IMG/VR virus record: IMGVR_UViG_3300020162_000532
Coordinates: 1-26,589 of that record
Direction: 5' to 3' (one strand)
Source of the DNA: a virus
Length of the DNA: 26,589 bases
Positions 8,179 through 25,485 of this stretch are shown here, one piece after another; position 1 is the first letter of the stretch, and each line of letters begins with the position of its first letter. Under the pieces are notes generated by a model that saw only the letters and a list, made by a program, of their open reading frames with translations, was not told where the DNA came from and ran no database searches. Position numbers and translations under genes: made by a program.

Positions 8179-9143
8179 AAATATTAGTAACAGGTGGTAT
8201 GGGGTTTATTGGTCACAATGTGGTTAAGTTCCTAACAGAGCGCGATCATAATGTAATAGTTATGGATAATCGAACTACGTATGGGTTTGTTCCACAATCA
8301 GAACTGGATTATCTTATGAAGGAACGCGGTAACAAGATCTGTCCTGATGCGGTGTATCCAACTGACATTAGAAATGGATCTGATGTTGATCATATCATTC
8401 AACAGTTTACTCCTGAACTAATAATTCATTGTGCCAGCTTTCCGCGGCAAAAGGTAGTTAGTGCAGATCCGGTATTGGGTTCTCAAGTTATGTGTACTGG
8501 GTTAATCAATCTGTTAGAAGCAGCCAAAAAATACCAAGTAAGAAAATTCCTATATATTAGCAGTAGCATGGTATATGGTGATTTTGAAACAGATGCTTAT
8601 GAAGATGACATCTGTAATCCCATTGGGCAATATGCTATTATGAAACTAATGGGTGAACAATTAGTTAAAGATTATAGTCGACGTACAGGTATGGAATACA
8701 CTATTGTTAGACCCAGTGCAGTGTATGGTGAACTAGATGTGGAAGATCGCGTCGTTAGTAAGTTTGTTACCATGGCGATGCGAGGCGAGACCTTGAAGAT
8801 CAAAGGTGCAAATGAAGTATTAGATTTTAGTTATGTGGAAGATACTGCATTGGGTATAGTTCAATCTGCATTATCCAACGACACCAATGGCAAGATTTAT
8901 AATATTACCCGCAGTGCTGAAAGAATCTACACACTAAAAGATGCCGCCGAGTTAGCTATATCAATAGCTGGAAGTGGCAAATATGAAATTCAAGATCGAG
9001 ACTTGGAGTTCCCTAGTCGCGGCCGTTTAAGTATTGAACGTGCTCGTGCCGATTTTGGATATGATCCCAAAGTAAATGTTGAAGAAGGATTTAAAAAATA
9101 TCATGACTGGTACACCGCTAATCCCATACTTTGGCGTCGCTAG
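8175..9143 (+). CDS. NAD-dependent nucleotide-sugar epimerase/dehydratase (extended SDR)
   Basis: A 322-aa extended short-chain dehydrogenase. The NAD-binding G-G-M-G-F-I-G is at residues 7-13, the catalytic Ser lies in S-S-S (129-131), and the Tyr/Lys pair is Y153-A-I-M-K157. D31 in V-M-D-N favours NAD over NADP. This family epimerises or dehydrates UDP-, GDP- or dTDP-sugars; the exact substrate cannot be read. The ATGA overlap with thyX and the 41-nt overlap with a DegT aminotransferase place it in one operon. The pair could make a 4-keto and then an amino sugar nucleotide, to be used by the glycosyltransferases on the other strand (inference). Confidence 0.9.
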   Translation: MKILVTGGMGFIGHNVVKFLTERDHNVIVMDNRTTYGFVPQSELDYLMKERGNKICPDAVYPTDIRNGSDVDHIIQQFTPELIIHCASFPRQKVVSADPVLGSQVMCTGLINLLEAAKKYQVRKFLYISSSMVYGDFETDAYEDDICNPIGQYAIMKLMGEQLVKDYSRRTGMEYTIVRPSAVYGELDVEDRVVSKFVTMAMRGETLKIKGANEVLDFSYVEDTALGIVQSALSNDTNGKIYNITRSAERIYTLKDAAELAISIAGSGKYEIQDRDLEFPSRGRLSIERARADFGYDPKVNVEEGFKKYHDWYTANPILWRR

Positions 9144-10212
9144 GCAATATCTCAACTTAAAAGAAGAGTTGATGGATGCTATCGACCACGTGTATAAATC
9201 TGGTCAAGTTTTGGATGGGCCAGTAACTGAGCAATTTGAAATGCGTATGCGAATGCTTACCAATCGCAAATATGCTATTGCTGTTAACAGTTGTACACAG
9301 GCATTGATCTTTAGTTTAAAATACTATCAATCATGTCGTAGTACACCAGCCAGGGTATTGATCCCCTCGGTCAGTTTTGTTGCCACTATTAATGCAGTAA
9401 TTGAGGCTGGCTGTATTCCAGTATTTGGACGAGTCAACAGTCAAACTGGACTACTGGACATTACTCAGATAGATCTCAACGAAGTTGATATTGTAATGTA
9501 TGTTAATCTATGTGGAAATATTATAGATTACGATCGCTTAACTGTGATGAACAAATTCTTTAATCGTGGTATACCGGTTATTGAAGATGCCGCACAGAGC
9601 TTTGGTGCTTACTATAAAGGCATACCCAGTGGCAAGTTGGGCGACATTAGTTGTTTAAGTTTTGATCCTACAAAAAATCTCAATAACTATGGCAGTGGGG
9701 GTATGATACTTACTGATGATCCTGACATAGCAGATGCAATGTATGATTTTAGAAACAATGGTAAAACTACCTACCATACACGATCTGGCACCAACAGTAA
9801 AATGTCAGAATCTGATTGTGCCCAAATGATAGTTAAATTACGGCACTTTAGTCGATGGCAAGAGCGTAGACGAAAGATTGCTGAATACTTTGATCAACAT
9901 ATTATTTCACAACCCGAAGAATTAAATAAAGATGTAGTTCATGCTCGCAGTAAGTATTTTGTACAGCATACAAATGCTTCTGATTTAAAACTACACATGC
10001 ATTACAAAGGTATCGAGAGTAGGATATTATACCCAACACCACTTACAACATTTGATGTAGCTACTATATCTGGAAATCCTCTGTCGGCTCAATTTATGCA
10101 TGAACGGTTTTGTGAGAGTGCATTGGGGATACCAATCTATCCTGAGCTAACCGATGCTGAGGTAGAATGTATTGTAGAGGGTGTTAACTCTATGTTTACA
10201 GTTCAGTATTAA
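9103..10212 (+). CDS. DegT/DnrJ/EryC1/StrS sugar aminotransferase
   Basis: A PLP-dependent enzyme that transfers an amino group to a keto-sugar nucleotide. From the ATG at 9103 (369 aa) the PLP-binding Asp lies in E-D-A-A-Q-S (D162) and the Schiff-base Lys is K191 in S-F-D-P-T-K-N-L; the following G-S-G-G-M-I-L-T-D-D is typical. The start at 9103 is preferred to an upstream in-frame ATG at 9076 because M-T-G-T-P-L-I-P-Y-F matches the usual N-terminus and an AGAAGGA lies 13 nt before it. It overlaps the SDR gene by 41 nt. Its 3' end overlaps the convergent gene on the minus strand by 17 nt. The product sugar is unknown. Confidence 0.9.
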   Translation: MTGTPLIPYFGVARQYLNLKEELMDAIDHVYKSGQVLDGPVTEQFEMRMRMLTNRKYAIAVNSCTQALIFSLKYYQSCRSTPARVLIPSVSFVATINAVIEAGCIPVFGRVNSQTGLLDITQIDLNEVDIVMYVNLCGNIIDYDRLTVMNKFFNRGIPVIEDAAQSFGAYYKGIPSGKLGDISCLSFDPTKNLNNYGSGGMILTDDPDIADAMYDFRNNGKTTYHTRSGTNSKMSESDCAQMIVKLRHFSRWQERRRKIAEYFDQHIISQPEELNKDVVHARSKYFVQHTNASDLKLHMHYKGIESRILYPTPLTTFDVATISGNPLSAQFMHERFCESALGIPIYPELTDAEVECIVEGVNSMFTVQY

Positions 10213-10771
10213 AAAAGAATGTTTGGGTTAATCTACCATCAAATTGATTATTTCCAAATCCAGCCAACACGCTACTATGGTACAATTCCCCACGGTAAAT
10301 AATTAATCGATTGTATACATTTGCCGCCTGTATAGTTGGAGTCCAACGAGTATAATCAGATATTAATGCAGAATCATTATTGTAGTCGGTAGATGCATTG
10401 GTAGAATCCCAGCAAAATATTCCAGTTTCGTTATTCCTATAAATGGCTGTGCCAGAGTCTGCTGGTGCATCTGGAGTTAGGTATAATACTCCTGCCCACA
10501 TTGTTTCATCATGATGTATCCATGTGGTTGCATCCTGGGTAGTAAACTGAAATGAAGTATTGTACTCACTAGGCCAAAAGTTAATTTTACGATACATTAA
10601 CTGCTCTATCATACTGCGGCAATTATCAAAATTTTCACCAGACATTGCTGATGTCCTTGCCCCTGGAAAATTCCCAGTAACAGTAAACGGCAAACTCAAT
10701 GCATATTTCCTGACTGCATCTACATTGTTATAAAAATTATCGTATACTAGTACGTTTGGTATTGGATTCAT
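10196..10771 (-). CDS. DUF6445-type 2OG-Fe(II) oxygenase-like protein
   Basis: The ATG at 10771 overlaps the upstream TGA as ATGA; a longer in-frame start (10807) lies inside the 814-aa gene. The 191-aa protein has an iron-binding layout: H86-H87-D88 in W-I-H-H-D-E, a distal H165 in Y-H-S-S, and R180 in G-R-L-T-Q-T-F-F. The surrounding W-A-G-V-L-Y-L-T-P-D-A-P and S-G-T are hallmarks of the DUF6445 family as I know it, a double-stranded beta-helix fold resembling prolyl hydroxylases. It is the last gene of the minus-strand operon and may hydroxylate a protein, peptide or sugar. Activity not proven for the family. Confidence 0.75.
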   Translation of the reverse strand: MNPIPNVLVYDNFYNNVDAVRKYALSLPFTVTGNFPGARTSAMSGENFDNCRSMIEQLMYRKINFWPSEYNTSFQFTTQDATTWIHHDETMWAGVLYLTPDAPADSGTAIYRNNETGIFCWDSTNASTDYNNDSALISDYTRWTPTIQAANVYNRLIIYRGELYHSSVLAGFGNNQFDGRLTQTFFFNTEL

Positions 10772-13212
10772 TTGTCCCTGCCATAATAAGATTTTAACCA
10801 GTCCCACTCAAAACTCAATAACAGATCACTATACTTACCATCCACTGAGTCATAATACTCTACAGCATCCTTTGCACCGTTAATACTAAATTCAGCAAAA
10901 TCACCTTGTGCTTTGGTAAGCCAAGTTTGTAGCCGTAAACTATTATTAGCACTGGGTTCATGATGATCGTTATATACTAATTTTATTACTTCACGGAATG
11001 CTGTGCGCCATGTAGTAAAGGGGTCAATATTAAAATTTGCAACACCACTCACTATTGGTACTACTTCAGCTGGTCTACTCAACGTAAAATCTAATCCCCA
11101 ATCATCAGTTTCTAAAACCAATCGTTTGTTATAAGCAATTAATCCTTGGTGGCCATACTCTAATCCATTTACTGGGTTATGCGAATAAAAAATATAATGC
11201 TTGTCTTGCTGTTGTTTACCAGGATGCCAATTCCAATTAAAATTGGGATTAATTTTTAGTTTGGCAAACACTGTAAAAAACCATTCTGTTTGGCTTAGTT
11301 CAGCGGCCGCTTTATATGCCGCCGCCCGACCATTTATACCACTTACTCTATGGACAGTTTGATCGCCTTTGGGTGCATTCTGTAGCAAGTGTTCCCAGTT
11401 AGCTTGCTCATCTCTTTCCCCATTGCCAATGTATACAATATCTAACGGTTTTTGTGCATTTTGCGTTAAAATATTAACGGTTCGTTCACTTTCTGTGCGG
11501 AAAAACGCAAGAGATTCACGTGATACTATTGTAGCACTACCTGTGCCAATGGAAACTTCTACAGGCCACGTTTTTTGCACCCACATCTTGGGAACATAGT
11601 TTGATACATCAGTTTGATCTCTAACAAAAATAGCATATGGAAAATCAAACTGTACATTACTGACTGCTTGCTCCAATGGGGTATCATCTATGTGATAGAT
11701 TGCTGGACATGTAATTCTTGGCACTATTTGATCTGACGTATAGCTAATATTAAACCAATCCAATGACTCAGACTCACGTGCCTGGATATTAAATGCTTTT
11801 GTGTTTATATAAAAGGTATCACCAAACTTTTGATCAGTAGTAGCGAAAGAATGAACCATATCTAGTTGAGACTCATCCGGTTTCCAACCAAAATCAAAAT
11901 TAGCATAATCACAAATTGAATTTATAAACCACAAATTTGGTTGAATAGATATACTAGCTTCTTGCACCATAACATGCAAATAACTATTAACAAAATCTAC
12001 TCGTTTGACATTTAACCCTATCTGACGTAAGTAATCTAATTGTGTCTTGCTTTCAGCATTTCCATGATCAATATAGATAACATGTTGGAAGATCGCCGGA
12101 CATTCAAATTTTGTAACAATTGCCGGACATTCAAATCTTGATACTGTTTGATCTGTCGTATAGTTAATGTCAAACCAATATAATGACTCACGTGCCTGGA
12201 AGTTAAATGCTTTTGTGTTTACATAAAATGTATCACCAGACTTTTGATTAGTAGTAGCGAAAGAATGCACCATATCTAGTTTGAACTCATCTGGTTTCCA
12301 ACCAAAATCAAAATTAGCATAATCACAAATTGAATTTATAAACCACAAATATGGTTGAATAGATAAGCTACATACTTGAGCCATAACATGCAAATAACTA
12401 TTAACAAAATCTACTCGTTTGACATTTAACCCTATCTGACGCAAGTGATCTAATTGTATCTTACTATCAGCATTGCCATGATCAATGTAGATAACATTTT
12501 GGAAGATCGCAGGACATTCAAATTTTGTAACAACTGTTGGACATTCAAATCTTGATACTGTTTGATCTGTCGTATAGTTAATATCAAACCAATATAATGA
12601 CTCACGTGCCTTCATGTCAAAATCTCTGGTGTTTACATAAAATGTATCACCAAACTTTTGATTAGTTGTGGCAATAGCATGTACCATATCTAGTTGAGAC
12701 TCATCTGGGTGCCAACTAAAATCAAAATTAGTGTAATCACAAACCGAGTTTATAAACCACAAATATGGTTGAATAGATAAGCTACATACTTGAGCCATAA
12801 CATGCAAGTAACTATTAACAAAATCTACTCGTTTGACATTTAATCCCAGCTGATGCAAGTGTTCTAATTGTATCTTGCTATCAGCATTGCCATGATCAAT
12901 AAAAATAACATTTGCTTGATCTTCTTTGCGATGAGCTTTAAATATTGTTTGATAATGATCACCGGCTGGTGTTAATTTAGATCTAAATATACCACCACCG
13001 TTGCGTTGCCACTGTGTTGCAAATATATGTTGATAATGTGCCTCCCACGGATCAGGTTGCCAAGTGAAGTCAAATTGACTATAATCATTGCCACCATCTA
13101 AATACCAAAAGAATTTAGTTTTACTTAGTCTGGCTGCTTTATTAATTGATGTCGCTTGTTTCTCGTGTGGAAACAACCCAGTAGGAGTATGTTCATAAAA
13201 AACATCATACAT
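10768..13212 (-). CDS. Multi-module GT-A-like protein with 138-aa tandem repeats, 814 aa
   Basis: Built from repeated glycosyltransferase-like modules. Residues 1-95 hold one module with an acidic L-D-G-G-N-D (38-43) where GT-A enzymes have their DXD. Residues 102-239, 240-377 and 378-about 505 are three copies of one 138-aa unit (about 85% identical by eye), each with I-D-H-G-N-A, K-R-V-D-F-V-N, W-F-I-N-S-x-C-D and the doubled F-E-C-P-x-[IV] near its end. Residues about 525-575 are a half module. Residues about 588-760 resemble the GT-like protein encoded at 22250 but have V-F-A-K in place of DGD. Most modules thus look catalytically degenerate. It overlaps its neighbours by 8 and 4 nt. It may be a carbohydrate-binding scaffold or a multi-domain transferase. 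Family call is by pattern. Confidence 0.75.
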   Translation of the reverse strand: MYDVFYEHTPTGLFPHEKQATSINKAARLSKTKFFWYLDGGNDYSQFDFTWQPDPWEAHYQHIFATQWQRNGGGIFRSKLTPAGDHYQTIFKAHRKEDQANVIFIDHGNADSKIQLEHLHQLGLNVKRVDFVNSYLHVMAQVCSLSIQPYLWFINSVCDYTNFDFSWHPDESQLDMVHAIATTNQKFGDTFYVNTRDFDMKARESLYWFDINYTTDQTVSRFECPTVVTKFECPAIFQNVIYIDHGNADSKIQLDHLRQIGLNVKRVDFVNSYLHVMAQVCSLSIQPYLWFINSICDYANFDFGWKPDEFKLDMVHSFATTNQKSGDTFYVNTKAFNFQARESLYWFDINYTTDQTVSRFECPAIVTKFECPAIFQHVIYIDHGNAESKTQLDYLRQIGLNVKRVDFVNSYLHVMVQEASISIQPNLWFINSICDYANFDFGWKPDESQLDMVHSFATTDQKFGDTFYINTKAFNIQARESESLDWFNISYTSDQIVPRITCPAIYHIDDTPLEQAVSNVQFDFPYAIFVRDQTDVSNYVPKMWVQKTWPVEVSIGTGSATIVSRESLAFFRTESERTVNILTQNAQKPLDIVYIGNGERDEQANWEHLLQNAPKGDQTVHRVSGINGRAAAYKAAAELSQTEWFFTVFAKLKINPNFNWNWHPGKQQQDKHYIFYSHNPVNGLEYGHQGLIAYNKRLVLETDDWGLDFTLSRPAEVVPIVSGVANFNIDPFTTWRTAFREVIKLVYNDHHEPSANNSLRLQTWLTKAQGDFAEFSINGAKDAVEYYDSVDGKYSDLLLSFEWDWLKSYYGRDK
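11690..12909 (-). repeat. Three tandem 414-bp coding repeats
   Basis: Copies 1 (12909-12496), 2 (12495-12082) and 3 (12081 to about 11690) keep an exact 414-bp period: the landmark ACATGCAA recurs at 11972, 12386 and 12800. The reading frame is preserved and unit 3 is the most diverged at its end. Nucleotide similarity is high over long stretches, which points to recent duplication and makes copy-number change by recombination possible. Confidence 0.92.
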
Positions 13213-14014
13213 AAAGACTCTCCGTAAAGTTTATTAATAGTTTGCTGAATTCAATATGTGCTTCTTCCAGTGGATGTGTAGTGCCCATGGGGAATTTATT
13301 ATACTTTGCCCAATCATAGAACCCCACACGTGGTTCTAGCATACATCGCGTCTTATCAACCAACGTTGCCATACGTGTTACTTCTGACCACTTAGATGGG
13401 TTGGTTAAACAATCCATTAGTCTGGTATCAGCAAAGGTAAACACATATGGGATTCGCATCTGTTGGAGGATATTTTGCATGAATACCAATTCTTTTAGTG
13501 CCAAATAAGATACATGGCAAGCATCAATACCCACATTCTTATACCATTGTTTGGCAAAGTCATATATGCCTATTCGCCGTATTTCCTCAATCCGTGTCAA
13601 GTGTCCTTGTAAGATACGTTCTTCATTTTCAGTTAGTGCGCCTTTACCAAAGTATTCACGCATAGTAGATTCAGTAGCTTCTGAATCCCACATATTAACA
13701 CTATGCCAATGATTATTTTTGCTTACTTGGTATGCGAACCTAAACTCATGTCGCTCTAGGAATGACCACATAATAACCACAAGTGGTTCAAATTTACCGT
13801 GTATCCCATCAATTACATGCCGTGAGATGGCATTATTTGCACTGCCGCCCAATGCAGTACAAGTATACTCTAAATTAAAATGTTTAGCTACCAAACCTGC
13901 ACATGTGTTTGGGCTAAAATAGTTTTCGTTACCAGATTGGCAAATTGCCGCTTCGTAATCCCGTAACTCATTACCAAGTACAAAACTACACCCACCAGAA
14001 ATTAATGTTTTCAT
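13205..14014 (-). CDS. SGNH/GDSL-hydrolase-like protein
   Basis: A 269-aa protein with the start of an SGNH fold: G-G-C-S-F at residues 7-11 (nucleophile S10) and G-G-S-A-N-N at 56-61 (block with Gly and Asn of the oxyanion hole). Late His residues in T-H-P-L-E-E-A-H (H247, H253) could complete the triad. Such enzymes add or remove acyl groups on sugars, and phage versions often begin G-x-S-F-x-x-G-x-E-L as here. The length fits a single-domain hydrolase. It follows a 99-nt gap, the only real gap in the operon, and overlaps the 814-aa gene by 8 nt. Substrate unknown; O-acetylation of a glycan is a reasonable inference. Confidence 0.75.
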   Translation of the reverse strand: MKTLISGGCSFVLGNELRDYEAAICQSGNENYFSPNTCAGLVAKHFNLEYTCTALGGSANNAISRHVIDGIHGKFEPLVVIMWSFLERHEFRFAYQVSKNNHWHSVNMWDSEATESTMREYFGKGALTENEERILQGHLTRIEEIRRIGIYDFAKQWYKNVGIDACHVSYLALKELVFMQNILQQMRIPYVFTFADTRLMDCLTNPSKWSEVTRMATLVDKTRCMLEPRVGFYDWAKYNKFPMGTTHPLEEAHIEFSKLLINFTESLYV

Positions 14015-14113
14015 GTTAGTATATAAATGGATCTCGTTTTTTTATTTCTTTAAGACGTTTGCGATAGTTGATTTCCATTCTAACACGTTGGTACCATCTT
14101 TGAAAAAATCTAA
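14015..14113 (-). other. 99-nt gap in the operon with open extension of the upstream frame
   Basis: Between the radical SAM stop (TAA, 14114-14116) and the SGNH start. After that stop the same frame stays open for 23 codons (L-D-F-F-K-D-G-T-N-V-L-E-W-K...) to TAA at 14042-14044, and the peptide looks protein-like. There is no convincing promoter; TATACT at 14018-14023 is too close to the ATG and has no -35 box. It may be a decayed C-terminus. Confidence 0.45.
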
Positions 14114-15418
14114 TTATGAACATTCTATGTCTCCCCACCATTTTAAAATATCTGTATCCACTGATAAAATCTGTTCCATGGTAATATATCCAGGTCTTAT
14201 GTTTTCCATTTGCAGTATTCTACGCTTGCCTCTACTTGCTCCAGGCTGATACTTAGATGGCCACTGCTCTGCAAACGTGGGTCTATTATACATATTTTGT
14301 AGTACATCTATTAGACTACGATGTCTAGTACCAGACAATCTATTTAACTGCTTATCTAGCATTTGATTTAATAGTTCTCTGGGTAAACACATTGGACTCA
14401 TTAATACGTCTGAGTCAAATGCAAAACATACTTTGGTCAATATATCTACATTGAGAGAATCAGCCAACGCAACCATGTTATCAATGTCAAACATACCCGG
14501 CAACGTCAGAGTAAGATCCAATCTAAGCTGACGTGGATGTTTCGCTACCTTGAGTCCTTGCTTAAAGTTTTCCAACCAAGTTTCATAATTTAACCCAGTC
14601 CGAATGTATTCTCCAATTGCACCAGTTCCATCTATACTAGCACATACTTGCCAATCTCTAAACTTGGACAATAGATGAAATAGGTTGTATTTTTTGTAAT
14701 CCACACGACTAAGGTTGGTGTTGTATCTGGGATACACACGGTGAGCATACCCTAATTCAACAATGCGACTCATACTGACCCAATGTATATCCCACATCAA
14801 TGGTTCGCCACCAACCCAATAAATTTCCTCTATGCTTTTATTCTCTACAGCCTCTGTGAATTCTTTTACCACTTGCTGATCAGTAAATTTAGATATCTGT
14901 TCTCTTACTTCTGGCAACATCCAATGATTGCGACTTTGTGACCAATCAATCATATTGTTTTGCTTTAGTTCAGTTTCCCAACTACTACTTAACATATCAC
15001 CACACATACGACATTTAAAATTACAAAGGTTACTAAAACGATAATCCCAAGATACGGGTCGCATTGTAGTGAACCCCTCGGCATCAGTACAAGATGCAAT
15101 TTCATCCATCTTGTGTGCAAACATCTTGTTAAAATAACTGCGATAGACATCAGTGTTTAGCAGTTTGTGATTACATACGTCACATTCTGATGGAGGAGTT
15201 CCAGCCAACATCTGTACACGTACATTTCTGATATGTTCGGAGTTCCACCATTGCTCTAATGTCATGGGATTATATACACCAGTACCTACTGCTGTATCTA
15301 TGTATTGTTTAAAACTCTGTGCTGGTTCACGACTTGCACAACACAATCTACGTTCATGTTGTGGACTGATGTATGTGTGAGTCCAGGGTGCGGCACAAAG
15401 TACTGGATTTGGTTTCAT
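14114..15418 (-). CDS. Twitch-domain radical SAM protein, subfamily A (copy 1)
   Basis: A 434-aa radical SAM enzyme. The N-terminal twitch-type region has C8 in C-A-A-P-W, C26-C27, and C79-x2-C82, which should hold an auxiliary iron-sulfur cluster. The SAM cluster motif CX3CX2C is at C132, C136 and C139 (C-N-F-K-C-R-M-C), followed by G-G-E-P at 203-206. Radical SAM enzymes of this kind cleave SAM to a 5'-deoxyadenosyl radical and modify sugars, peptides or proteins. The family matches NCBI's twitch-domain radical SAM group as I remember it. The ATG overlaps the previous gene by 4 nt. A readable in-frame extension lies after its stop. Substrate unknown. Confidence 0.9.
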   Translation of the reverse strand: MKPNPVLCAAPWTHTYISPQHERRLCCASREPAQSFKQYIDTAVGTGVYNPMTLEQWWNSEHIRNVRVQMLAGTPPSECDVCNHKLLNTDVYRSYFNKMFAHKMDEIASCTDAEGFTTMRPVSWDYRFSNLCNFKCRMCGDMLSSSWETELKQNNMIDWSQSRNHWMLPEVREQISKFTDQQVVKEFTEAVENKSIEEIYWVGGEPLMWDIHWVSMSRIVELGYAHRVYPRYNTNLSRVDYKKYNLFHLLSKFRDWQVCASIDGTGAIGEYIRTGLNYETWLENFKQGLKVAKHPRQLRLDLTLTLPGMFDIDNMVALADSLNVDILTKVCFAFDSDVLMSPMCLPRELLNQMLDKQLNRLSGTRHRSLIDVLQNMYNRPTFAEQWPSKYQPGASRGKRRILQMENIRPGYITMEQILSVDTDILKWWGDIECS

Positions 15419-16455: not shown

Positions 16456-17621
16456 AACAACTCGCTCAATTCAGGAAATACCGCGATAAAGTTTTCTTTT
16501 CTAAAGTTATCATGCTTTATTATACGCTCTTTTCGTTCAGTAAACAATGCTATTTCTGCTGGTTGATGCATAAAGTCTAATATTGGTACTAGTTGGCTTC
16601 TGATATCTCCTGACAGTTTTATTAAGTCAATCCGAGTCATAACCAATTGCTTAACTGAATCGGGTAAATTTTTTATTGACCAAACTGGATCGCTGTGCAA
16701 TAAGTTTAAGTAAACGTAATCAAATGGCTTTGATTGAATCCAATATGCTATATTTTGAATATTTGTAATATTAAACATATTTACTGTACAGCAAATTTGT
16801 GTGGTAAAGTTCCGGTGTTGTCTACTGTGTTCCCAAAACTGTTCCATGTTGTGGTTAACTAAATCCCACTTGGCTGGATGTCGTTGGTATTCAAATCGTT
16901 CATTGAGATCATCAATACTAAACGCCATCTCCACAGATTTAAAATGCGGCCACAAATCACGCATCGCTTGTTTGGGTAACAGGGTTCCATTGGTGTTGTA
17001 GTGAATTGAGATATGTTTACTATGTCCAGATTCAACTGCTTGTTTTAGAAACCTATAATGATTTTTAATCATCAATGGTTCACCACCAGTAATTTCCATA
17101 TATAATATATGTGGCATTACTTGTTCCAGATCATCCCAAAACTTTTCGCTTTCGTTGGGCCATTGCCCTTGTGCTAGCCACATCGCCGCTCTGGAGTTAT
17201 CACCATCTAATGCAATTTCTTCTTCAGCCCAACTACTACTGCTCCAACTACCGCACATACGACATTTTAAATTACATTGGTTTCCCAGTTTTAAATCAAT
17301 AAAAGATAATGATGGCTTTGTATTAATGTCAGGAGTAAATTTAAATTTCTCTATACTAGACAGTCGTTTACTTTTCCTACCAACTGCTTCTTCATCCCAA
17401 CATAACTTACATGTTTCTGGTTTACCACCAGCTAACATAGTTTGTCGAATCTGTTGCATGTATGAGCTATCAAACATTTCAATGATACCATGTTTGCTTA
17501 TCTGCATATCAGTACCAGTCTGATCTTTAATACTTTCCCTAGCCAAACAACATGGTCTAGCAGTACCAATTGGACTAGTCTCAATACTCATCCAGGGCAA
17601 CGGACATATATTATTTGACAT
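16449..17621 (-). CDS. Twitch-domain radical SAM protein, subfamily A (copy 2)
   Basis: A 390-aa radical SAM enzyme. The N-terminal cysteines are C6 (C-P-L-P-W), C24-C25 and C71-x2-C74; the SAM cluster is C116, C120, C123 (C-N-L-K-C-R-M-C); G-G-E-P lies at 179-182. After the cluster it has S-W-S-S-S-S-W, as in copy 1 (S-S-S-W). The start has GAGG 6 nt upstream and overlaps the preceding gene by 11 nt. The C-terminus ends F-P-E-L-S-E-L, a shared tail with copy 3 (F-P-E-Y-S-D-L), so these two are the closest relatives. All residues needed for activity appear present. Substrate unknown. Confidence 0.92.
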   Translation of the reverse strand: MSNNICPLPWMSIETSPIGTARPCCLARESIKDQTGTDMQISKHGIIEMFDSSYMQQIRQTMLAGGKPETCKLCWDEEAVGRKSKRLSSIEKFKFTPDINTKPSLSFIDLKLGNQCNLKCRMCGSWSSSSWAEEEIALDGDNSRAAMWLAQGQWPNESEKFWDDLEQVMPHILYMEITGGEPLMIKNHYRFLKQAVESGHSKHISIHYNTNGTLLPKQAMRDLWPHFKSVEMAFSIDDLNERFEYQRHPAKWDLVNHNMEQFWEHSRQHRNFTTQICCTVNMFNITNIQNIAYWIQSKPFDYVYLNLLHSDPVWSIKNLPDSVKQLVMTRIDLIKLSGDIRSQLVPILDFMHQPAEIALFTERKERIIKHDNFRKENFIAVFPELSELLC

Positions 17622-18909
17622 GGAACCTCAAGTCGCTATATTCTGGAAATACATCATGAAACTTTTCATTACGTAATGCATCCAGTTGATCAGTGCGACT
17701 GAAAAACTTGCGGAGCATATTATTCTCATTGGCCAATAGCCCAATTGCACTTTTAAATCCAGTGGTTGCTCTAGCCAAACGATCGTGCGGTGCCAACCAT
17801 TCAATATGTTCGTTATACAAATGTGTTAATTCTTGTTTGTGTACGTCTGGTAAGTTATCTATTCTATAGTATGGTGGATCTAAGAGTAAGTTTACATTTA
17901 CATCACCGTGTCGTATGTAACCCTTGCCTACCCAACTCTTGTGTAAATCCATGATGTTGTATGCATTAAAAATGCTCAGTGTGGGACTGATATAAAAGTC
18001 CACGTTGGGACAAACACGCAACATCTGTTCTCGATTTCTTTCAATCTCATCCCATACTGTTTCTTTTCTAATATACTCAGCTCTTGCACCAGAAGCATCA
18101 ATACTAGCACCTATGCTGACACTGTCAAACAGTTTCCATAGTTCTAAAATATTTTGCTTTTTGTATGAAATTTTACTGAAGTTGGTGTTGTAGGCCAATC
18201 TTACATGAAACTTCTTACGTTTGACCAGTTCATTTACCAAGCGATAATGTTCTTCCATCAGCAATGGTTCACCACCAGCAAAATATACTTGTTCTAGGGT
18301 ATCAATGTGTGGTAACATTTGTTGCCAGATATCTTCTGGATCTTTACCAGCATATTGTACTCTGGCGGTCTTGAGTGGGCCATACATTTTGTTGTCATCT
18401 TCCCACCACTTACTGCTGAAATCCACTCCGCAAGTACGACATTTAAAATTACACAGGTTATTAAATCTAATATCCCAATACACTAGCGACGTATCTTCAG
18501 CAACACCATCCACTGTTTTATCTGTTGCTCTAGCAATATGATGACCAAAATGTTTATTAAAGCTATTACGCATGGTAAATGCACCAGCTTGTTCTCCCTG
18601 ATAGCATTTCCTACATTCAGTACTTTCGACATCAGTAAGCATACGTGTTCTTAGCTCACGCATTGGTGTATCATTCCATATCTCTGTTATGGTATTTTTA
18701 CGTAGATCGCCAACTGGGTTGTTGTATTCACTGTGACAACAAGGATAGGCTTTGCCTGATGGATATCCATGTAAATGAATCCAAGGCAACATACAGAATG
18801 TTTTGCTTTCCATTAGCAGATGTTTTTGCTTGTCGGTTAGATCTTCAACATCAATCTCTATGGGTTCTTTACTGTCATATTTGTATGGTTTTTTAAATCG
18901 ACTGGTCAT
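17611..18909 (-). CDS. Twitch-domain radical SAM protein, subfamily A (copy 3)
   Basis: A 432-aa radical SAM enzyme with about 30 extra charged residues before the first cysteine. Twitch-type cysteines are C39 (C-M-L-P-W), C57-C58 and C99-x2-C102; the SAM motif is C153, C157, C160 (C-N-F-K-C-R-T-C); G-G-E-P is at 212-215. A-S-I-D-A-S-G near the middle matches A-S-I-D-G-T-G in copy 1. The start ATG overlaps the 3' end of the 2OG-Fe oxygenase gene by 17 nt, so the two are coupled. Intact by motif. The acceptor molecule is not evident from sequence. Confidence 0.92.
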   Translation of the reverse strand: MTSRFKKPYKYDSKEPIEIDVEDLTDKQKHLLMESKTFCMLPWIHLHGYPSGKAYPCCHSEYNNPVGDLRKNTITEIWNDTPMRELRTRMLTDVESTECRKCYQGEQAGAFTMRNSFNKHFGHHIARATDKTVDGVAEDTSLVYWDIRFNNLCNFKCRTCGVDFSSKWWEDDNKMYGPLKTARVQYAGKDPEDIWQQMLPHIDTLEQVYFAGGEPLLMEEHYRLVNELVKRKKFHVRLAYNTNFSKISYKKQNILELWKLFDSVSIGASIDASGARAEYIRKETVWDEIERNREQMLRVCPNVDFYISPTLSIFNAYNIMDLHKSWVGKGYIRHGDVNVNLLLDPPYYRIDNLPDVHKQELTHLYNEHIEWLAPHDRLARATTGFKSAIGLLANENNMLRKFFSRTDQLDALRNEKFHDVFPEYSDLRFHVK

Positions 18910-19483
18910 TGGTTGGTTTATGTATAAGGTTAATATTAGCTACTACTCTTGCCGCATCACGTGACGGGTTATTGCCAGCATGTAAAGTATGGCCATTAAA
19001 GATTACCATACGGCCGCGCCTTGGCTGGACTCGCTGTTTTATAGTCATATCATCATTGTTAAAAATAACAGTATCTCCATCACTGTCGTTAAAGTAATAT
19101 ACCGCAGTTATGAATGGGAATGTCGCATCACCCAAATCTACGTGTGGGTAAGTATGTGTATGTGGTGTGGTAACGGTAGATGGCATGGTAAGATTCAATT
19201 TAAATTTAGCCAACTCCATACTACTTATATTGGGAATTGCCTCCACTATTGGCAAAAAGATACGAATAAAATTTGATCTAATAGTGTGTAAATCAAACAG
19301 TAGATGGGAGAAGAACGGAGTATCTACGGCGCCAGGGGTATATGGTATAGTACTGATATCTACCTCCCCTGGTCGATATACACTTGTTGAATGATAATGC
19401 CAAGGAAAATCAACAGACAAACTCAGTGCCTCTAGTCTTTCTTGTAGCCCTTTATCAATAACATCGTCAATGACTGTTATCAT
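18893..19483 (-). CDS. 2OG-Fe(II) oxygenase, prolyl-4-hydroxylase-like
   Basis: A 196-aa non-haem iron enzyme using 2-oxoglutarate and oxygen to hydroxylate a substrate. The facial triad is H114-V-D116 and H168 (T-L-H-A-G), and R179 in R-D-A-A-R-V-V fits the 2-oxoglutarate-binding Arg. The segment Y-Y-F-N-D-S-D-G-D-T-V-I-F-N with Q-P-R-R-G-R-M-V-I-F-N-G-H is the usual jelly-roll core. It overlaps the upstream radical SAM gene by 4 nt and the downstream one by 17 nt, sitting between the two subfamilies. Marine phages often carry such enzymes. Its target, a protein side chain or a glycan, is not known. Confidence 0.9.
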   Translation of the reverse strand: MITVIDDVIDKGLQERLEALSLSVDFPWHYHSTSVYRPGEVDISTIPYTPGAVDTPFFSHLLFDLHTIRSNFIRIFLPIVEAIPNISSMELAKFKLNLTMPSTVTTPHTHTYPHVDLGDATFPFITAVYYFNDSDGDTVIFNNDDMTIKQRVQPRRGRMVIFNGHTLHAGNNPSRDAARVVANINLIHKPTNDQSI

Positions 19484-20820
19484 ATACTATCTACCCAATC
19501 TCTCAGTTGTTTGGGCCAATCTAAAATTCTATTTTTGTTTCTACGCTGATCATATTGAGCATAAAATACTTTAAAGTCTTTGGCTAATTGTTCTCTACTA
19601 CTGGCACCAACGTGCGGTGAGTCAACTTCTCGCAAATAATCTATTAGCCGTCTAACATGGTCCAATTCCATTTGATGCAACAGACTTGATCCTTTATGCA
19701 TCTCATACCAATCTTCCAACGCTTGTGCTCTTTCTAATCGTAGTTCTAATGGCAATACCAATGGACTTTGAAAACTGGGGAAACGTAAAATGTTTAATGT
19801 AAATGTGGGGAAGTCACGGCCATACTCCACTTTAAAAGCTAGACACCAATTTAAAAAGTCCACTAAACTCCACAAACACAATGCATTGATAGTAGACATA
19901 ACATGTAATCCTTTGAGGTTTGCCTCCACGGCCAACCTATGCATGTTAACTGACCATTGGCTAAAATCCAGTCCATCTCGAATATAATTGGCCATATATC
20001 CAGTTGCTTCACAACTGGTATAGACATGCATATTATTGATTTGTTTAGCTTTGCCAATAAACTTGGTAATTAGGTCATCTTTGGCACCCAAGTTAGTGTT
20101 TAGAGCAAATTGTATATTACTACCCGAGTCAACAAACCAATCCAATAGTTTCCACACTTCGCCGCTCATTAGCGGTTCGCCACCAGTTACCCGTAGTTCT
20201 TTTAAACTGTATTGTAAGTCACTTTCCCACCACTTAAAGAATGCTTCAACGTAGGGATTAGTTACAGTATGATCAAATAACTGACTGCCATCGTGAGCGT
20301 GAGTAAAATGATTACGGCCGTCACTAACCAATCCTTGGTACGGACCGTTTTGTTTAATGTCTCTGACCCAGGTTGAACTGAAGGCTGGATTACAGTAGGA
20401 GCAGGCAAATTGACACGTTCTGTCAAAGGCAATTTCAAGTGTCTGGAGGTTAACATCTTTTTTTGTCGTATCGTTAAATGCATCATTCAAATCCCCCTCA
20501 CTGTAAATTTTGCTTTTATAGACCCGGTCGCTTATTGCTTCCTTACTTATGCCTTCTATCTTCCAACAGTATTCACACCCGCTGGGCTTCTCACCACGTT
20601 GCATCATTATACGTTCTTGTTTCTTTTTAGGGGTATTATGTAAGGCAGCTGGGTTAGCCCGAACTTCTTCAACAGATACCTTGTGTGGTAACGGATGATG
20701 GCAACTAGTAGTCATACCACTGCCCAACCATATAGTGGCATTATACCACTTGGCGCCGCAGAAGCTATCGCTTTTGGTATCTAATACTCGCTGTTTGTAT
20801 TCCAATGATGATTCATTCAT
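19480..20820 (-). CDS. Twitch-domain radical SAM protein, subfamily B (copy 1)
   Basis: A 446-aa radical SAM enzyme of a second type. N-terminal cysteines: C21 in C-G-A-K-W, a single C40 in S-C-H-H-P (where subfamily A has CC), and C82-x2-C85 in C-E-Y-C-W. The SAM motif is C136, C140, C143 (C-Q-F-A-C-S-Y-C) and G-G-E-P is at 213-216. The segment N-P-Y-V-E-A-F-F-K-W-W just before G-G-E-P and the A-L-H-N-T...R-I-M-M block are shared with the next gene upstream. ATGA overlaps on both sides give tight coupling. Catalytic residues appear complete; substrate unknown. Confidence 0.9.
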   Translation of the reverse strand: MNESSLEYKQRVLDTKSDSFCGAKWYNATIWLGSGMTTSCHHPLPHKVSVEEVRANPAALHNTPKKKQERIMMQRGEKPSGCEYCWKIEGISKEAISDRVYKSKIYSEGDLNDAFNDTTKKDVNLQTLEIAFDRTCQFACSYCNPAFSSTWVRDIKQNGPYQGLVSDGRNHFTHAHDGSQLFDHTVTNPYVEAFFKWWESDLQYSLKELRVTGGEPLMSGEVWKLLDWFVDSGSNIQFALNTNLGAKDDLITKFIGKAKQINNMHVYTSCEATGYMANYIRDGLDFSQWSVNMHRLAVEANLKGLHVMSTINALCLWSLVDFLNWCLAFKVEYGRDFPTFTLNILRFPSFQSPLVLPLELRLERAQALEDWYEMHKGSSLLHQMELDHVRRLIDYLREVDSPHVGASSREQLAKDFKVFYAQYDQRRNKNRILDWPKQLRDWVDSI

Positions 20821-22253
20821 GATGTTGCATGATCCTTAATATTTTTGCATTCATTCCAAAACTCTGTCATTTCAGGAAAAGTTTTTAAAAAGTCTGTACC
20901 GCGTCGTTGATCATGTGCATTAAAAAACCGATAAAAGTTAGCACGATCCTGCATCATATCTCTACCAGAGGGACTGAGCATCCAATCTCTGACACGTTCC
21001 ATTCGTTGTATTTCATAATCTTTAAATCCATGAAATCTATTACTTGCTGTTTCTAAATTTCCCTGCATAAACTTTATACTATCATTAATGCTATTACTGT
21101 ATTCCCTGGGCAAAATCTGTAAACTTTGCCAGTATGGTTGTCTTAAGTATGGAGTATCAAACCATACACGTTGATACGTTTGACTAAACTGCTTGCGTAA
21201 TTCCAGTATTTGTCCTAACAATTTCGCTTGATTAGACAGGCTGAGATTATGCATAGTAACTATAAATGTTAAACTGTTTTTATATGGTACCTCTGTCATA
21301 TATCTTATTACATTTTCCCACACCAAATCAAACTCTAATCCATGGCGTGAGTATTCTGCTTGTTTACCCCAACAGTCTAAACTAACATATTGCATAAAAT
21401 GCTCTATATTATCACCAGTACACAATGCCTTGACGTAATTTAGGTACTTATTAAATATTCTGGGTTCCTGACTAAAATTACTAGTCACGTTTAAATGTAA
21501 ATTGGGTTTGGGATTAGTCAATACATAGTCAAATACCTTATATGTATTTTTATCCATCAAGGGCTCGCCACCAGTCATGCGAAAATGTTCTAGTTTTGGA
21601 TATAGTGTTGGCCACCATTCCCAAAATGCATCAACATAGGGATTGGCTTCTTTGATTGGTATTGGGCGACGTGATCCTTTAAAATATTCTGGATCATTAT
21701 GTGGTGGATTTGTGGGGAACGCACCATGTTCTGCTACCTCGGTTCCCCAACTACTGCTGAACTGTGGACTACAATAACTGCATTGTAAGTTACATAGATT
21801 GCTAAAATTTACTTCCACATAACTGGGAATAACATCTTCATGTCCACGCATCTTTTTAATGCTGTCATAATCTTTAATAGCCCAGGGTTCGGCACTGCGA
21901 TATTGACGGTCACTAAGGTTGCCAGCATCCTCTATGGCCCAGCAATAACTACATTCTTTTGGTCGCTCACCACGCAACATCATTATACGTTGTTGTTTTT
22001 TGTGATCAGTATTATGCAATGCTGATGGATTAATTTTTATATCATCCAAACTAACCTGATGCAACGGTGGGTGATAACAACTGTTGTTATGCCCTGTGGT
22101 TAAATGTAAACTAACCTGTTGCCATTTAGCCAAACAAAAACTAGAACTGACACTGTCCAGTAATGGCTTAACTGATTGAGCATCTGAATAAAACTTGCTG
22201 ACTAATGCATCGCCAGTTTCTTCAACCTGATCACCTTTGTTGTCATTGTTCAT
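20817..22253 (-). CDS. Twitch-domain radical SAM protein, subfamily B (copy 2)
   Basis: A 478-aa radical SAM enzyme closely related to the gene downstream of it. N-terminal cysteines: C40 in C-L-A-K-W, C59 in S-C-Y-H-P and C101-x2-C104 in C-S-Y-C-W. The SAM motif is C154, C158, C161 (C-N-L-Q-C-S-Y-C) and G-G-E-P is at 228-231. N-P-Y-V-D-A-F-W-E-W-W and A-L-H-N-T...R-I-M-M are shared with copy 1 of this subfamily, and both end with a Y-x2-D-Q-R-R or H-D-Q-R-R segment. A polar, probably flexible N-terminus (1-35) is specific to it. It is coupled to the GT-like gene by ATGA. Substrate unknown. Confidence 0.9.
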   Translation of the reverse strand: MNNDNKGDQVEETGDALVSKFYSDAQSVKPLLDSVSSSFCLAKWQQVSLHLTTGHNNSCYHPPLHQVSLDDIKINPSALHNTDHKKQQRIMMLRGERPKECSYCWAIEDAGNLSDRQYRSAEPWAIKDYDSIKKMRGHEDVIPSYVEVNFSNLCNLQCSYCSPQFSSSWGTEVAEHGAFPTNPPHNDPEYFKGSRRPIPIKEANPYVDAFWEWWPTLYPKLEHFRMTGGEPLMDKNTYKVFDYVLTNPKPNLHLNVTSNFSQEPRIFNKYLNYVKALCTGDNIEHFMQYVSLDCWGKQAEYSRHGLEFDLVWENVIRYMTEVPYKNSLTFIVTMHNLSLSNQAKLLGQILELRKQFSQTYQRVWFDTPYLRQPYWQSLQILPREYSNSINDSIKFMQGNLETASNRFHGFKDYEIQRMERVRDWMLSPSGRDMMQDRANFYRFFNAHDQRRGTDFLKTFPEMTEFWNECKNIKDHATS

Positions 22254-23155
22254 GCTTGCTGTTCGGTTAGCATTATACCACGATGTTTGTATTGCGTCTT
22301 GTAATGATGTTTAAAGAACCTGCTTTGCTCGGCAGTAAAATCAACAATAGGCAATCCCAGCCTGGTTTTCAACTGTCTAGTATAATGATCAATTACATCA
22401 GGAGATTGGGTTAATGTACCTTTATATAATGTTTTGATAAAATCAAAGTCTTGAACCAAGGTGTAATCCCAATCGCTCAACATGGTCATAAAAGTGCCAG
22501 TGCGGGCTCCATGCATTGCATGAATACCATTCTCTACATCAGCACCCACACTTTGCCAAATACACATATGATCGTAATTACGTTTGTATACTGATGCTTC
22601 AAATTCTTCAACTGATGGCCGTCTACCGCGATCCAAACACATTTTAACGCCTTCGCGGAATCCAGCTCGCCATGCTTGTTCAGCACTTTGATTTGGATAG
22701 GTAACACTGTAGCAATCATGCATAGCAAAGTATTTGGGATCAAAGCAAAATTCCACCAGTGTTTCAGTACGACCATCGCTAGCTTCATGTGTACGCATAT
22801 TGTTGACAAAATCTTTAGTCCAACAACTCATACCTCCATTACCATACATTAATCCATTAATACTATTACGTGCTTTCCAACGGAATACACATTGGTTATT
22901 GGCTGATGTAAGTTCTAGTTCACTTTCAAAGAATTCTGGATATGGTAAGTTATCGCCATCAATTAATACAAAGCGATCAGTGTAACTAGCGGCAGCCGCC
23001 GCCTTGTGAGCGGCGTCGCTACCTTTAACACCATCTACACGTTTGGCCCAAGGAACCATATTTTGAATTTTAATCCAAAATTCTTCTTTCTTGGGTTCAT
23101 CGTAACTCAAATATATTACATCTAAATCACAAATCTCAATTTTTTCGATAGTCAT
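22250..23155 (-). CDS. GT-A glycosyltransferase-like protein
   Basis: The ATG at 23155 is chosen because AAGGTGAG lies 4-5 nt upstream; an in-frame ATG at 23173 would place that site inside the coding sequence. The 301-aa product starts with a Rossmann-like strand (L-D-V-I-Y-L-S-Y) and has V-L-I-D-G-D-N with D66-G-D68, a DXD metal/nucleotide-sugar motif. A run of Ala (A-A-H-K-A-A-A-A-A-S) precedes it, as in the first and last modules of the 814-aa protein. W-R-A-G-F-R-E-G-V-K-M near the end matches W-R-T-A-F-R-E-V-I-K-L there. It probably transfers a sugar; donor and acceptor unknown. Confidence 0.75.
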   Translation of the reverse strand: MTIEKIEICDLDVIYLSYDEPKKEEFWIKIQNMVPWAKRVDGVKGSDAAHKAAAAASYTDRFVLIDGDNLPYPEFFESELELTSANNQCVFRWKARNSINGLMYGNGGMSCWTKDFVNNMRTHEASDGRTETLVEFCFDPKYFAMHDCYSVTYPNQSAEQAWRAGFREGVKMCLDRGRRPSVEEFEASVYKRNYDHMCIWQSVGADVENGIHAMHGARTGTFMTMLSDWDYTLVQDFDFIKTLYKGTLTQSPDVIDHYTRQLKTRLGLPIVDFTAEQSRFFKHHYKTQYKHRGIMLTEQQA

Positions 23156-23525
23156 ATGTCTCACCTTGTTCACTTACAAACAGCATATTATGTTTAGTTA
23201 CTGTAAACCTACCATTTTCTGTAGGGACTATTAGACGTTTAATCTCACTCACCCTACGCCCAGGAATACGCATAACTCGATTATCACTGACATAATATTC
23301 TTCTTTCAGTTTAGTGTAATCAAAATATGATTGCTCTACATCCAGTAAGGCAAAGGCTGGGTCTTGGGTAGTGTAATTCTCATCCGATATCTTGGCTATT
23401 ATAGCACCCGATAAGGTATTATACAATATCTTTCTTGTAATTTTTTCAATGACTGGTCGAGTTTCTTCAAATTCCATCATGCCCTTGGTAAACTCGGCAT
23501 ACTCCTGGTCACTAAGTTCGGTCAT
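23136..23525 (-). CDS. Small hypothetical protein in the operon, 129 aa
   Basis: The ATG at 23525 is preferred because it gives a 14-nt overlap with the preceding gene; longer in-frame starts run far into that gene. Residues 1-30 are acidic and helical. The central part has A-I-I-A-K-I-S-D-E-N, and the C-terminal half looks beta-rich with V-M-R-I-P-G-R-R and a Y-D-Y-R-K-N end. I do not recognise a family. It lies between two GT-like genes and overlaps the next by 20 nt, so it is surely cotranscribed. It could be an accessory subunit, but nothing in the sequence shows this. Confidence 0.65.
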   Translation of the reverse strand: MTELSDQEYAEFTKGMMEFEETRPVIEKITRKILYNTLSGAIIAKISDENYTTQDPAFALLDVEQSYFDYTKLKEEYYVSDNRVMRIPGRRVSEIKRLIVPTENGRFTVTKHNMLFVSEQGETYDYRKN

Positions 23526-24345
23526 AATCAGCAGTCCAATGTTTAACGTAATAATGGAATGGATACCATTGTTTGGTGAGCCCCACAATTAAATTAAAGT
23601 CTTGATCTAATTGTGAATACAGGTGATTGGTCCAATCAGCATTGGGATGCAATCCATTAATACCACCCTTCATGTGAGTCATGATCGGATAACTTAATGC
23701 TGGATTAGTACAAACATCTTCACCCAGTAGGAATACCGCTATAGCAAATACGACATCTGTACTAGCTTCGTCTGGTGCCATCTTCCAACATATCTTGTAC
23801 TCGTTCCAGGACTCAAATATTTGATACACAAGAGTAAAAAATCTATTTGCAATTCCTGAATATTTAAAATAATAGATGCCATTGTATACATTAGGCAATG
23901 AATTTATTTTAAAAAACTTTCGATAATATTGATCTGTCACTGCTTGATTTTTAAAATTAGTAACAAATATTGGAAACAATACATCACGACTTCTAAGACC
24001 ATACTTCCAATGATCGATAGCTCGTGTCATAACTAGATCAGATTCTAGTTTAATAGTTTCCTTAAATGGAGTCAGACTATATGCTAATGCCTCATTACCA
24101 AACCGACCAAACTTGGGAGTTAGGTCCTCGTGTGCAATGATAATATGATCAAATATCTTTCTATTTTGTTCAGTGATAGCACTGTGCGTTTCTTCATTTA
24201 CTATAACCGCAGTTTGCGCTTGCGGCATATATTTTTTAATACTCTGTGCTTGAAGATGAGCTAACTTAAAATAATCAACATCCGTTGAGTTATTGGCTAT
24301 AGTTAGATATCCATATTGTGCTTTAAATTCACGACGTGAGGGCAT
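23512..24345 (-). CDS. GT-A-like protein with ESD in place of DXD
   Basis: A 277-aa protein with the order of a GT-A fold: an early Y-G-Y-L-T-I-A strand, then A-L-A-Y-S-L-T-P-F-K-E-T-I-K-L-E-S-D (E101-S-D103) at the place where the next gene upstream has a normal D-S-D. Later segments include N-G-I-Y-Y-F and a C-terminal H-M-K-G-G-I-N-G-L-H-P. These features match the GT8-like and related phage transferases in outline. The DXD change to ESD keeps one Asp and may still bind metal. It overlaps its neighbours by 17 and 14 nt. Activity is uncertain; it may act with the gene at 24329. Confidence 0.7.
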   Translation of the reverse strand: MPSRREFKAQYGYLTIANNSTDVDYFKLAHLQAQSIKKYMPQAQTAVIVNEETHSAITEQNRKIFDHIIIAHEDLTPKFGRFGNEALAYSLTPFKETIKLESDLVMTRAIDHWKYGLRSRDVLFPIFVTNFKNQAVTDQYYRKFFKINSLPNVYNGIYYFKYSGIANRFFTLVYQIFESWNEYKICWKMAPDEASTDVVFAIAVFLLGEDVCTNPALSYPIMTHMKGGINGLHPNADWTNHLYSQLDQDFNLIVGLTKQWYPFHYYVKHWTADYDRT

Positions 24346-25159
24346 CGATGTCCTGGCATATAGATTGGCTTTGCAAGCATAATTTGTTCATAACATGCAA
24401 ATTGGTATTAGATACTTTGATAATGGTGTCCATACAATTAATTATGATGTTTTTGTTGGTGTCAATTCTTTCAATGTAATTTCTAGCCGGTAACATCATC
24501 ATGGGTGGCAGTTTCTCATCCAGGGGGCGACACCCATTTAAGGTATGTGCCGCCAAACTCAATGCATAATCATTTCTAAAATGACTATTGATTAACATCA
24601 ATGCTTGATAATATTCGTAGTTTTTCTGTATAAGTTTCCAGTAATCAAATATAGCTCGGCTAGCAATACTTTTGTTAAAAATTACCACAGTAGCCCAGGC
24701 TTGCGGTATAGTATCGTTGATGTATCTGAATCCCTCGTACCCGCCTTTGCCAGTGATATCATGAGCCAACCAAGGGCAAAGAAAGTCACAATCTAAAGTT
24801 ACAAACTTCAGTAGTTCAGAATTAAAAACCAAGTAATCGCTGTCCAGTAATATGGTTACATCGTATGGTGATAGTTCCAAACTCAATGCTCTAGTATCGT
24901 TTTTAAAAGGATACTTCATGGTTTTTTCTTTATACTCGCTACTGGTATCGTCACGCACCACCAACGTTCTAGACCAGGTAGCCAAACTAGCAGATAGTAT
25001 TACTTGATCATACAAAGAACGATTGACTGGTTCTTTATCAGTAACCAGCGTGACCGGCAACCCTAAAAATTTGGTCACCAATTTGGTACAGTTATCAGCT
25101 ATGGTATAATAATCAAACTTGTCACCACCAAAGGCATGTAGCACGACACCTGTGGTCAT
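24329..25159 (-). CDS. GT-A glycosyltransferase-like protein with DSD motif
   Basis: A 276-aa protein resembling GT-A transferases. The N-terminus has V-V-L-H-A-F-G-G-D-K and a Y-Y-T-I-A-D-N-C segment. The key block is A-L-S-L-E-L-S-P-Y-D-V-T-I-L-L-D-S-D with D106-S-D108 as the metal/nucleotide-sugar motif. W-A-T-V-V-I-F-N-K-S is a typical later strand. The same frame of residues occurs in the gene at 23512, so the two are probably paralogues. The ATGA overlap with the upstream small gene couples it to the operon head. Donor and acceptor are unknown. Confidence 0.75.
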   Translation of the reverse strand: MTTGVVLHAFGGDKFDYYTIADNCTKLVTKFLGLPVTLVTDKEPVNRSLYDQVILSASLATWSRTLVVRDDTSSEYKEKTMKYPFKNDTRALSLELSPYDVTILLDSDYLVFNSELLKFVTLDCDFLCPWLAHDITGKGGYEGFRYINDTIPQAWATVVIFNKSIASRAIFDYWKLIQKNYEYYQALMLINSHFRNDYALSLAAHTLNGCRPLDEKLPPMMMLPARNYIERIDTNKNIIINCMDTIIKVSNTNLHVMNKLCLQSQSICQDIDALTS

Positions 25160-25485
25160 TTTAAGTCTTTCCCGCGCCTCAATTTCTTTAACTGTTCAAA
25201 TTCGCAATGCCACTCGTTCATTACACTTTGATATGTTTGTTTTAATTCAGTGAGTAGTTCATTGCGATTGATCTCGACAGGAGTATTGTACATATCCGAC
25301 AAGTATAGTTCATCAGCATCCCATACTGATAGAAAACTGATAAGTTCTGTTGTGGCTTTGAATAACCCGCCGTTGTGAGTAATGAGTAATTGTTGTTCAA
25401 TACGCTCAGACAGTGCCAGCTTGCTGGCTTGTTGATCGATTTTAAGTTGTGTAAATTCTATAAGTTTTTCAGATGAAGTAGTCAT
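25156..25485 (-). CDS. Small helical protein at the operon head, 109 aa
   Basis: The first gene of the 15-gene minus-strand operon. Its ATG lies only 6 nt after the -10 box of the promoter at 25492-25520, so the message should begin at or next to the start codon. No alternative in-frame start with a ribosome-binding site is visible. The product is helical at both ends (residues 4-32 and 72-100), with a central T-H-N-G-G-L-F-K-A-T and D-M-Y-N-T-P. I recall similar small proteins near tail-fibre genes in marine T4-like phages, without function. It could be a fibre-assembly helper or an operon regulator; neither is shown. Confidence 0.65.
   Translation of the reverse strand: MTTSSEKLIEFTQLKIDQQASKLALSERIEQQLLITHNGGLFKATTELISFLSVWDADELYLSDMYNTPVEINRNELLTELKQTYQSVMNEWHCEFEQLKKLRRGKDLK

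Follow-up and report, generated by a model that had tools for sequence, protein, structure and literature searches.

Radical SAM-rich phages have been on record since at least 2017, with no function attached to these genes. The T4-like marine genome TARA_ERS488813_N000010 carries 12 radical SAM genes (PMC5332604), and in pelagimyophages radical SAM cassettes lie within a host-recognition island rich in glycosyltransferase (GT) genes (PMC7029224). Given these two publications, the general kind of cluster is already known, and they overtake the suggestion of the first-pass annotation that the combination seen here might be new. A literature search for radical SAM and glycosyltransferase genes in jumbo phages identified no report and, within the sources searched, the five-enzyme module described below and its partners are undescribed. 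The fixed enzyme set, its partners and its promoter make of these genes a testable pathway.

The window, the whole stretch of DNA that was analysed, is a linear viral record of 26.6 kb that lacks a capsid gene and is probably a fragment of a larger genome. Fifteen intact ORFs occupy 10196-25485 on the minus strand in a tight operon array, and the ORF listing agrees with the 15 genes first annotated there. When internal methionines are taken as the starts of g01 (M13), g11 (M7) and g12 (M22), neighbouring genes overlap by about 4-20 nt and the sole gap is one of 99 nt (14015-14113), which reproduces the spacing that had been claimed. The features are as follows.

25538..26506, minus: FIB, gene for a fibre-like virion protein immediately upstream of the operon; kept before g15 in relatives
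25492..25520, minus: operon promoter TTGACT-N17-TATAAT, 11/12, between FIB and g15; recurs in relatives
25156..25485, minus: g15, conserved protein of 109 aa that opens the operon; family of 84 in the locus set
24329..25159, minus: g14, GT-A-like protein; conserved DxD (D106, D108), without a PDB match
23512..24345, minus: g13, glycogenin/GT8-like protein; conserved ExD (E101, D103), profile match
23136..23525, minus: g12, small protein starting at M22 of a 150-aa ORF; family F6 by position and partial alignment
22250..23173, minus: g11, predicted GT-A-fold protein; conserved DGDN
20817..22253, minus: g10, twitch radical SAM of group E; NF033640, 324 bits
19480..20820, minus: g09, twitch radical SAM of group D; NF033640, 289 bits
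18893..19483, minus: g08, 2OG-Fe(II) oxygenase, accessory; PF13640, E=6e-9
17611..18909, minus: g07, twitch radical SAM of group C; NF033640, 389 bits
16449..17621, minus: g06, twitch radical SAM of group B; NF033640, 346 bits
15415..16455, minus: g05, conserved protein of 346 aa; a family in relatives, PDB folds without a match
14114..15418, minus: g04, twitch radical SAM of group A; NF033640, 288 bits
13205..14014, minus: g03, SGNH-like hydrolase/esterase, accessory; GDSL lipase profile, E=9e-4
10768..13212, minus: g02, protein of 814 aa with three 414-bp tandem repeats; repeat analysis
10196..10807, minus: g01, DUF6445, oxygenase-like, start probably M13; PF20043, E=2e-15
9076..10212, plus: DegT/DnrJ sugar aminotransferase, convergent with the operon; PF01041, E=4e-67
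8175..9143, plus: SDR nucleotide-sugar epimerase/dehydratase; PF01370, E=4e-44

Relatives were collected from IMG/VR as 80 viral loci fetched by g11 alone and ten more fetched by radical SAM C, some of them near-duplicates, and were analysed by ORF calling and protein clustering. Fetching by g11 does not impose the neighbouring genes; since most loci were fetched in this way, radical SAM islands without g11 are under-sampled. In more than 80 loci the order is fixed, running from F10/F1/F8 fibre-like genes through FIB, g15, two GT genes, F6 (g12) and g11 to the radical SAM genes and g05, with four to seven radical SAM genes between g11 and g05 in the 47 loci having both; in the window g05 separates B from A, whereas in relatives it comes after A. 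Given that the best protein identities between relatives and the window are roughly 24-70%, this order is not due to close kinship, and the same gene set in the same order in dozens of uncultivated phages therefore indicates a real conserved pathway. The view of the operon as a single system is upheld, both by the core being kept together in relatives and by the neighbourhood comparison, set earlier as the test that could refute it, in which the five radical SAM genes are intact, co-linear and linked rather than scattered or degraded. By sequence the relatives are T4-like phages with contigs of up to 354 kb, a gp23-type capsid gene being present in 10 of 12 relative contigs (157-354 kb). Searches with g11, g05, g13 and FIB against 50,697 GenBank phage records found no match. 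Homologues of g11 in MAG contigs keep this same phage-like gene order, and those of lower identity occur in Bdellovibrionia and Roseobacter-group contigs; in several of the Bdellovibrionia contigs g11 is accompanied by g02-like and radical SAM genes, and in one case by a g05-like gene as well. In one Bdellovibrionaceae contig (L108:4918-14237) a radical SAM gene, a g05-like gene, an asparagine-synthase-like gene, g11, a g02-like gene and a twitch radical SAM gene stand close together and adjoin ordinary chromosomal genes.

In all five radical SAM proteins (g04, g06, g07, g09 and g10) the CX3CX2C and GGEP motifs are intact, and NF033640, 'twitch domain-containing radical SAM protein' (N_Twi_rSAM), matches them at 288-389 bits, well over its curated cut-off of 170 bits. 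In a tree of 356 radical SAM proteins the window's copies fall into five separate groups, A-E, within each of which the N-terminal twitch cysteines (four) and those of the radical SAM motif (three) are at least 98% conserved. Branch support in this tree is weak (0.02 for group A, 0.36 for D, 0.61 for C), and the unity of these three groups therefore leans mainly on position and similarity. The gene order E-D-C-B-A is exact in 32 loci; in the others it is mostly interrupted, extended or cut short, many of them ending at the limit of the contig or fetched stretch. Comparison of the group C profile with the PDB found no solved relative, and the sources searched gave no substrate for the NF033640 family.

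Of the remaining proteins, g11 is the best-conserved operon member, with 53-69% identity over diverse loci. Its predicted structure (pLDDT 89) matches the glycosyltransferases SunS, WrtF, TarP and RmlT in Foldseek, with E values of ~5e-4 to 2e-3 and low TM-scores, a marginal result that makes g11 a remotely assigned, putative GT-A-type enzyme by fold. The profile of g13 matches glycogenin marginally (E=0.0013), g14 has no confident database match and none among PDB entries, and no confident database match was found for g02. Of the GT-like proteins, g11 is remotely backed by its predicted fold and g13 marginally by its profile, but g14 and g02 have no such backing; the five twitch enzymes with intact motifs, the 2OG-Fe(II) oxygenase and the DUF6445-like protein were recovered by the NF033640 and Pfam matches given above, and the SGNH-like hydrolase is backed at profile level only. 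The three 414-bp repeats of g02 are in frame, in tandem and 85-92% identical, and are recent; by eye, g02 resembles a g11-type domain without the DGD motif. The predicted structure of g05 (pLDDT 87) has no match among PDB folds, and its good structural matches are proteins from uncultured phages. Homology of g05 to an Atu_ph07 protein was considered and rejected, the BFVD structure match being weak (TM ~0.4) and profile searches empty. Family F7 of the relatives, taken by eye for a GT10 fucosyltransferase, was likewise rejected as such: one member has no convincing Pfam match and the family profile has no PDB match. A carbamoyltransferase is present in relatives (PF16861, 3e-51).

The presence of GT genes together with variable decorating enzymes points to a glycan, as does the distant Vibrio phage K566, in which this radical SAM family is paired with genes that by eye read as GTs, and the first-pass annotation's glycan theme gains from the GTs, the carbamoyltransferase of relatives, the SGNH protein and the SDR/DegT pair. 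This pair, which had been credited with supplying sugar, is linked to the operon in the window and stands convergent after g02 in six relatives, but lies outside the core module. Gene content, motif integrity, gene order, the promoter and the fibre-gene neighbourhood are observations; sugars as products, a role for each radical SAM enzyme and the acceptor are inferred. In such a scheme g14, g13 and g11 (GT-A/GT8-type) would transfer sugars, and the non-redundant enzymes E, D, C, B and A would each perform one sugar conversion, for example dehydrogenation, epimerisation or deoxygenation, chemistry drawn from general knowledge of the superfamily. Variable decorations may then be added by 2OG oxygenases, SGNH and SDR/DegT proteins and, in relatives, by the carbamoyltransferase and the GT-like family F7. 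The acceptor would be the tail-fibre protein encoded just upstream, somewhat favoured over the host surface. Tentatively, and with somewhat less than an even chance of being right, we read the operon as a pathway that builds a glycan and reworks its sugars by radical chemistry, the phage's own fibre being a somewhat likelier acceptor than the host surface. Against this glycan reading count the solitary family copies elsewhere in the genomes, the separate promoter, the remote GT calls for g11 and g13 and the lack of one for g14, the missing solved relative for group C, and the fact that g05, g12 and g15 carry no assigned function.

Fibre-like genes precede g15 in the window and in relatives, in keeping with the early suggestion of a link to tail fibres, and the FIB profile matches PA5oct YP_010678854.1 (E=2.9e-28), a record annotated 'ESI-MS/MS'. 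The FIB gene lies 52 nt upstream of g15 and the gap holds TTGACT-N17-TATAAT. Among 67 non-redundant loci, with the expectation taken from shuffles, a sigma70-type promoter precedes g15 at 10/12 or better in 43 (3.1 expected) and at 11/12 or better in 31 (0.3 expected); no comparable excess is seen at the remaining genes of the operon, save a weaker signal at g11. With a sigma70-type promoter to itself, the operon is not simply tied to the virion genes in its expression. The -10 box of 17 loci is part of an inverted repeat that often precedes a T-run, and this hairpin may also end the fibre transcript; the sequences of its arms differ among loci (for example L032, L027 and L082), which suggests a combined terminator and promoter. 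The T4 late promoter TATAAATA is mildly enriched before FIB (9/89 against 1.5 expected). It was dropped as a yardstick of timing at the capsid gene, given that TATAAATA is absent before that gene within the fetched stretch; gp23 seems to sit inside an operon.

A host-type promoter of this kind, confined to g15 but for the weaker signal at g11, raises the possibility that the same glycan chemistry is directed at the host surface (LPS or capsule), altering the receptor and blocking superinfection by other phages. The variable accessory genes, with 19 different sets among 47 complete loci, would suit such a role, as would the published view of GT-rich islands in pelagimyophages (PMC7029224) and cyanophages (PMC7824862). 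However, a host-surface role would not need the lasting, tight linkage to fibre genes, and no flippase, polymerase or lipid-carrier transferase is recognisable among the operon ORFs of the loci. In a hydropathy scan membrane-like segments occur in 34 of 1101 operon ORFs against 52 of 578 other ORFs, and three or more such segments in only five of the 1101. For the host surface speak the separate promoter and published opinion; for a virion acceptor, the almost complete lack of membrane proteins and the constant company of fibre genes. Modification of the host surface is considered possible, if somewhat less likely than that of the fibre.

The glycan reading, on either acceptor, has also to be weighed against the wider distribution of the radical SAM family. 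Relative contigs (12 contigs, 157-354 kb) carry 7-14 NF033640 matches each, weak matches counted, several of these copies lying away from the operon. The extra copies that were inspected are solitary and stand amid genes for replication, proteases and chaperones, with GTs mostly absent. In four relative genomes (L264, L267, L268 and L269) the neighbour of such a lone twitch radical SAM gene is a clpP-like gene; others stand beside gp46/gp47-like genes (L266 and L270) or a GroEL-like gene (L263). Given these neighbours, the radical SAM family is not tied to glycans, and copies near clpP-like and GroEL genes would suit protein targets. The operon enzymes might then modify residues of a phage protein (the fibre, g12 or g15) in the manner of RiPPs, the GTs glycosylating the same protein. 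A parallel is offered by the cultured phages Atu_ph07 and Phosso, in which a radical SAM cluster with a protein bearing a CHxS tail follows homologous F8-F1 virion genes; in Atu_ph07 this protein (AUZ94952) is by gene count CDS 170, the first of the virion cluster CDS 170-215 that PMC6102473 reports from mass spectrometry. However, the clusters of Atu_ph07 and Phosso use different, peptide-maturase-like radical SAM enzymes, the CHxS tail is absent from the 12 relative genomes, and the operon proteins have no conserved Cys-rich tail; among those of at least 70 aa no RiPP-type precursor, recognisable by a conserved core that is Cys-rich or repeated, was found. Residue modification is thus judged improbable.

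Given its absence from the 12 relatives of the window, the CHxS tail is a separate system. It is a C-terminal tail, CHxSCHxSCHxSRGRR, common to jumbo-phage proteins with sequence-unrelated N-terminal parts and usually found beside peptide-type radical SAM genes. Proteins ending in CHxSCHxSCHxxRxRR occur in the cultured phages Atu_ph07, Phosso, FLC6, SURPRISE13 and pPa_SNUABM_DT01, where the neighbouring genes encode a radical SAM/SPASM enzyme, a cupin and a shared helper. The tail ORFs are as follows.

L122:21119-22009: CHxS-tail ORF, Atu_ph07 AUZ94952
L123:21679-22599: CHxS-tail ORF
L138:6060-6620: CHxS-tail ORF
L139:6025-6561: CHxS-tail ORF
L140:6060-6620: CHxS-tail ORF
L141-L260: further CHxS-tail stretches

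A pattern scan of IMG/VR returned at least 120 stretches. Among the matches listed, all 142 in-frame ORFs (in 115 stretches) have the final RR as their exact end, and for 81 of them the fetched stretch holds a peptide-type radical SAM gene, at a median gap of 16 nt, many stretches being short. Also among the matches listed, 125 distinct proteins fall into seven sequence groups once the tail is removed. Residues that the search pattern itself fixes carry no weight as evidence; what does count is the exact placing at the C-terminus, the S at -5 (120/125 among the matches listed) and the G at -3 (114/125). The tail proteins have no NCBIfam match and, for the one protein tested, no Pfam match; a match to one unnamed PHROG runs through the tail, and the motif was not found in the paper texts searched. 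Somewhat resembling His-Xaa-Ser systems, the tail looks like an undescribed phage protein tail modified by radical SAM enzymes.

Phage DNA hypermodification can employ radical SAM enzymes and glycosyltransferases, and the operon might accordingly hypermodify the bases of phage DNA. No search result speaks for such a role. The operon adjoins fibre genes, and a search covering the window shows ThyX but no recognised base-hypermodification enzyme, which leaves DNA as a very improbable target.

Returning to the glycan reading, its fullest form would be that, in this uncultivated lineage of large T4-like phages, an ordered five-step radical cascade remodels adhesin-attached sugars, with exchangeable decorations, to give glycoprotein fibres; in that complete form it is doubtful. 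Should the pathway yield sugars of the virion or of the host surface, phages would offer new radical sugar chemistry as well as a means of varying adhesins or receptors.

Laboratory entry points exist in cultured phages whose arrangements are related (Vibrio phage K566, Atu_ph07 and Phosso), each with its own likeness to the operon. In the unrelated Vibrio phage K566 NF033640-family radical SAM genes alternate with GT-like genes (the GT reading being by eye), but the order is another one and homologues of g11, g05, g15 and FIB were not detected in the stretch. In Atu_ph07 and Phosso the radical SAM/SPASM cluster comes straight after homologous F8-F1 virion genes, yet consists of peptide-maturase-like enzymes, a cupin and the CHxS-tail protein rather than the twitch family. 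The polysaccharide-modification clusters of cyanophages (PMC7824862) likewise combine phage GTs with sugar-supply genes, whereas the main text of that paper makes no mention of radical SAM. The pelagimyophage island is alike in being fibre-adjacent and variable and in carrying GT and radical SAM genes in a T4-like aquatic phage, a likeness of arrangement. In PMC7029224 and PMC5332604, however, the genes are merely mentioned, whereas here they form a fixed five-enzyme order with a core of g15-g14-g13-g12-g11-g05 and a promoter. All five enzymes belong to the NF033640 family by score and motif; what sets this locus apart within it is the presence of five non-redundant copies in a single operon.
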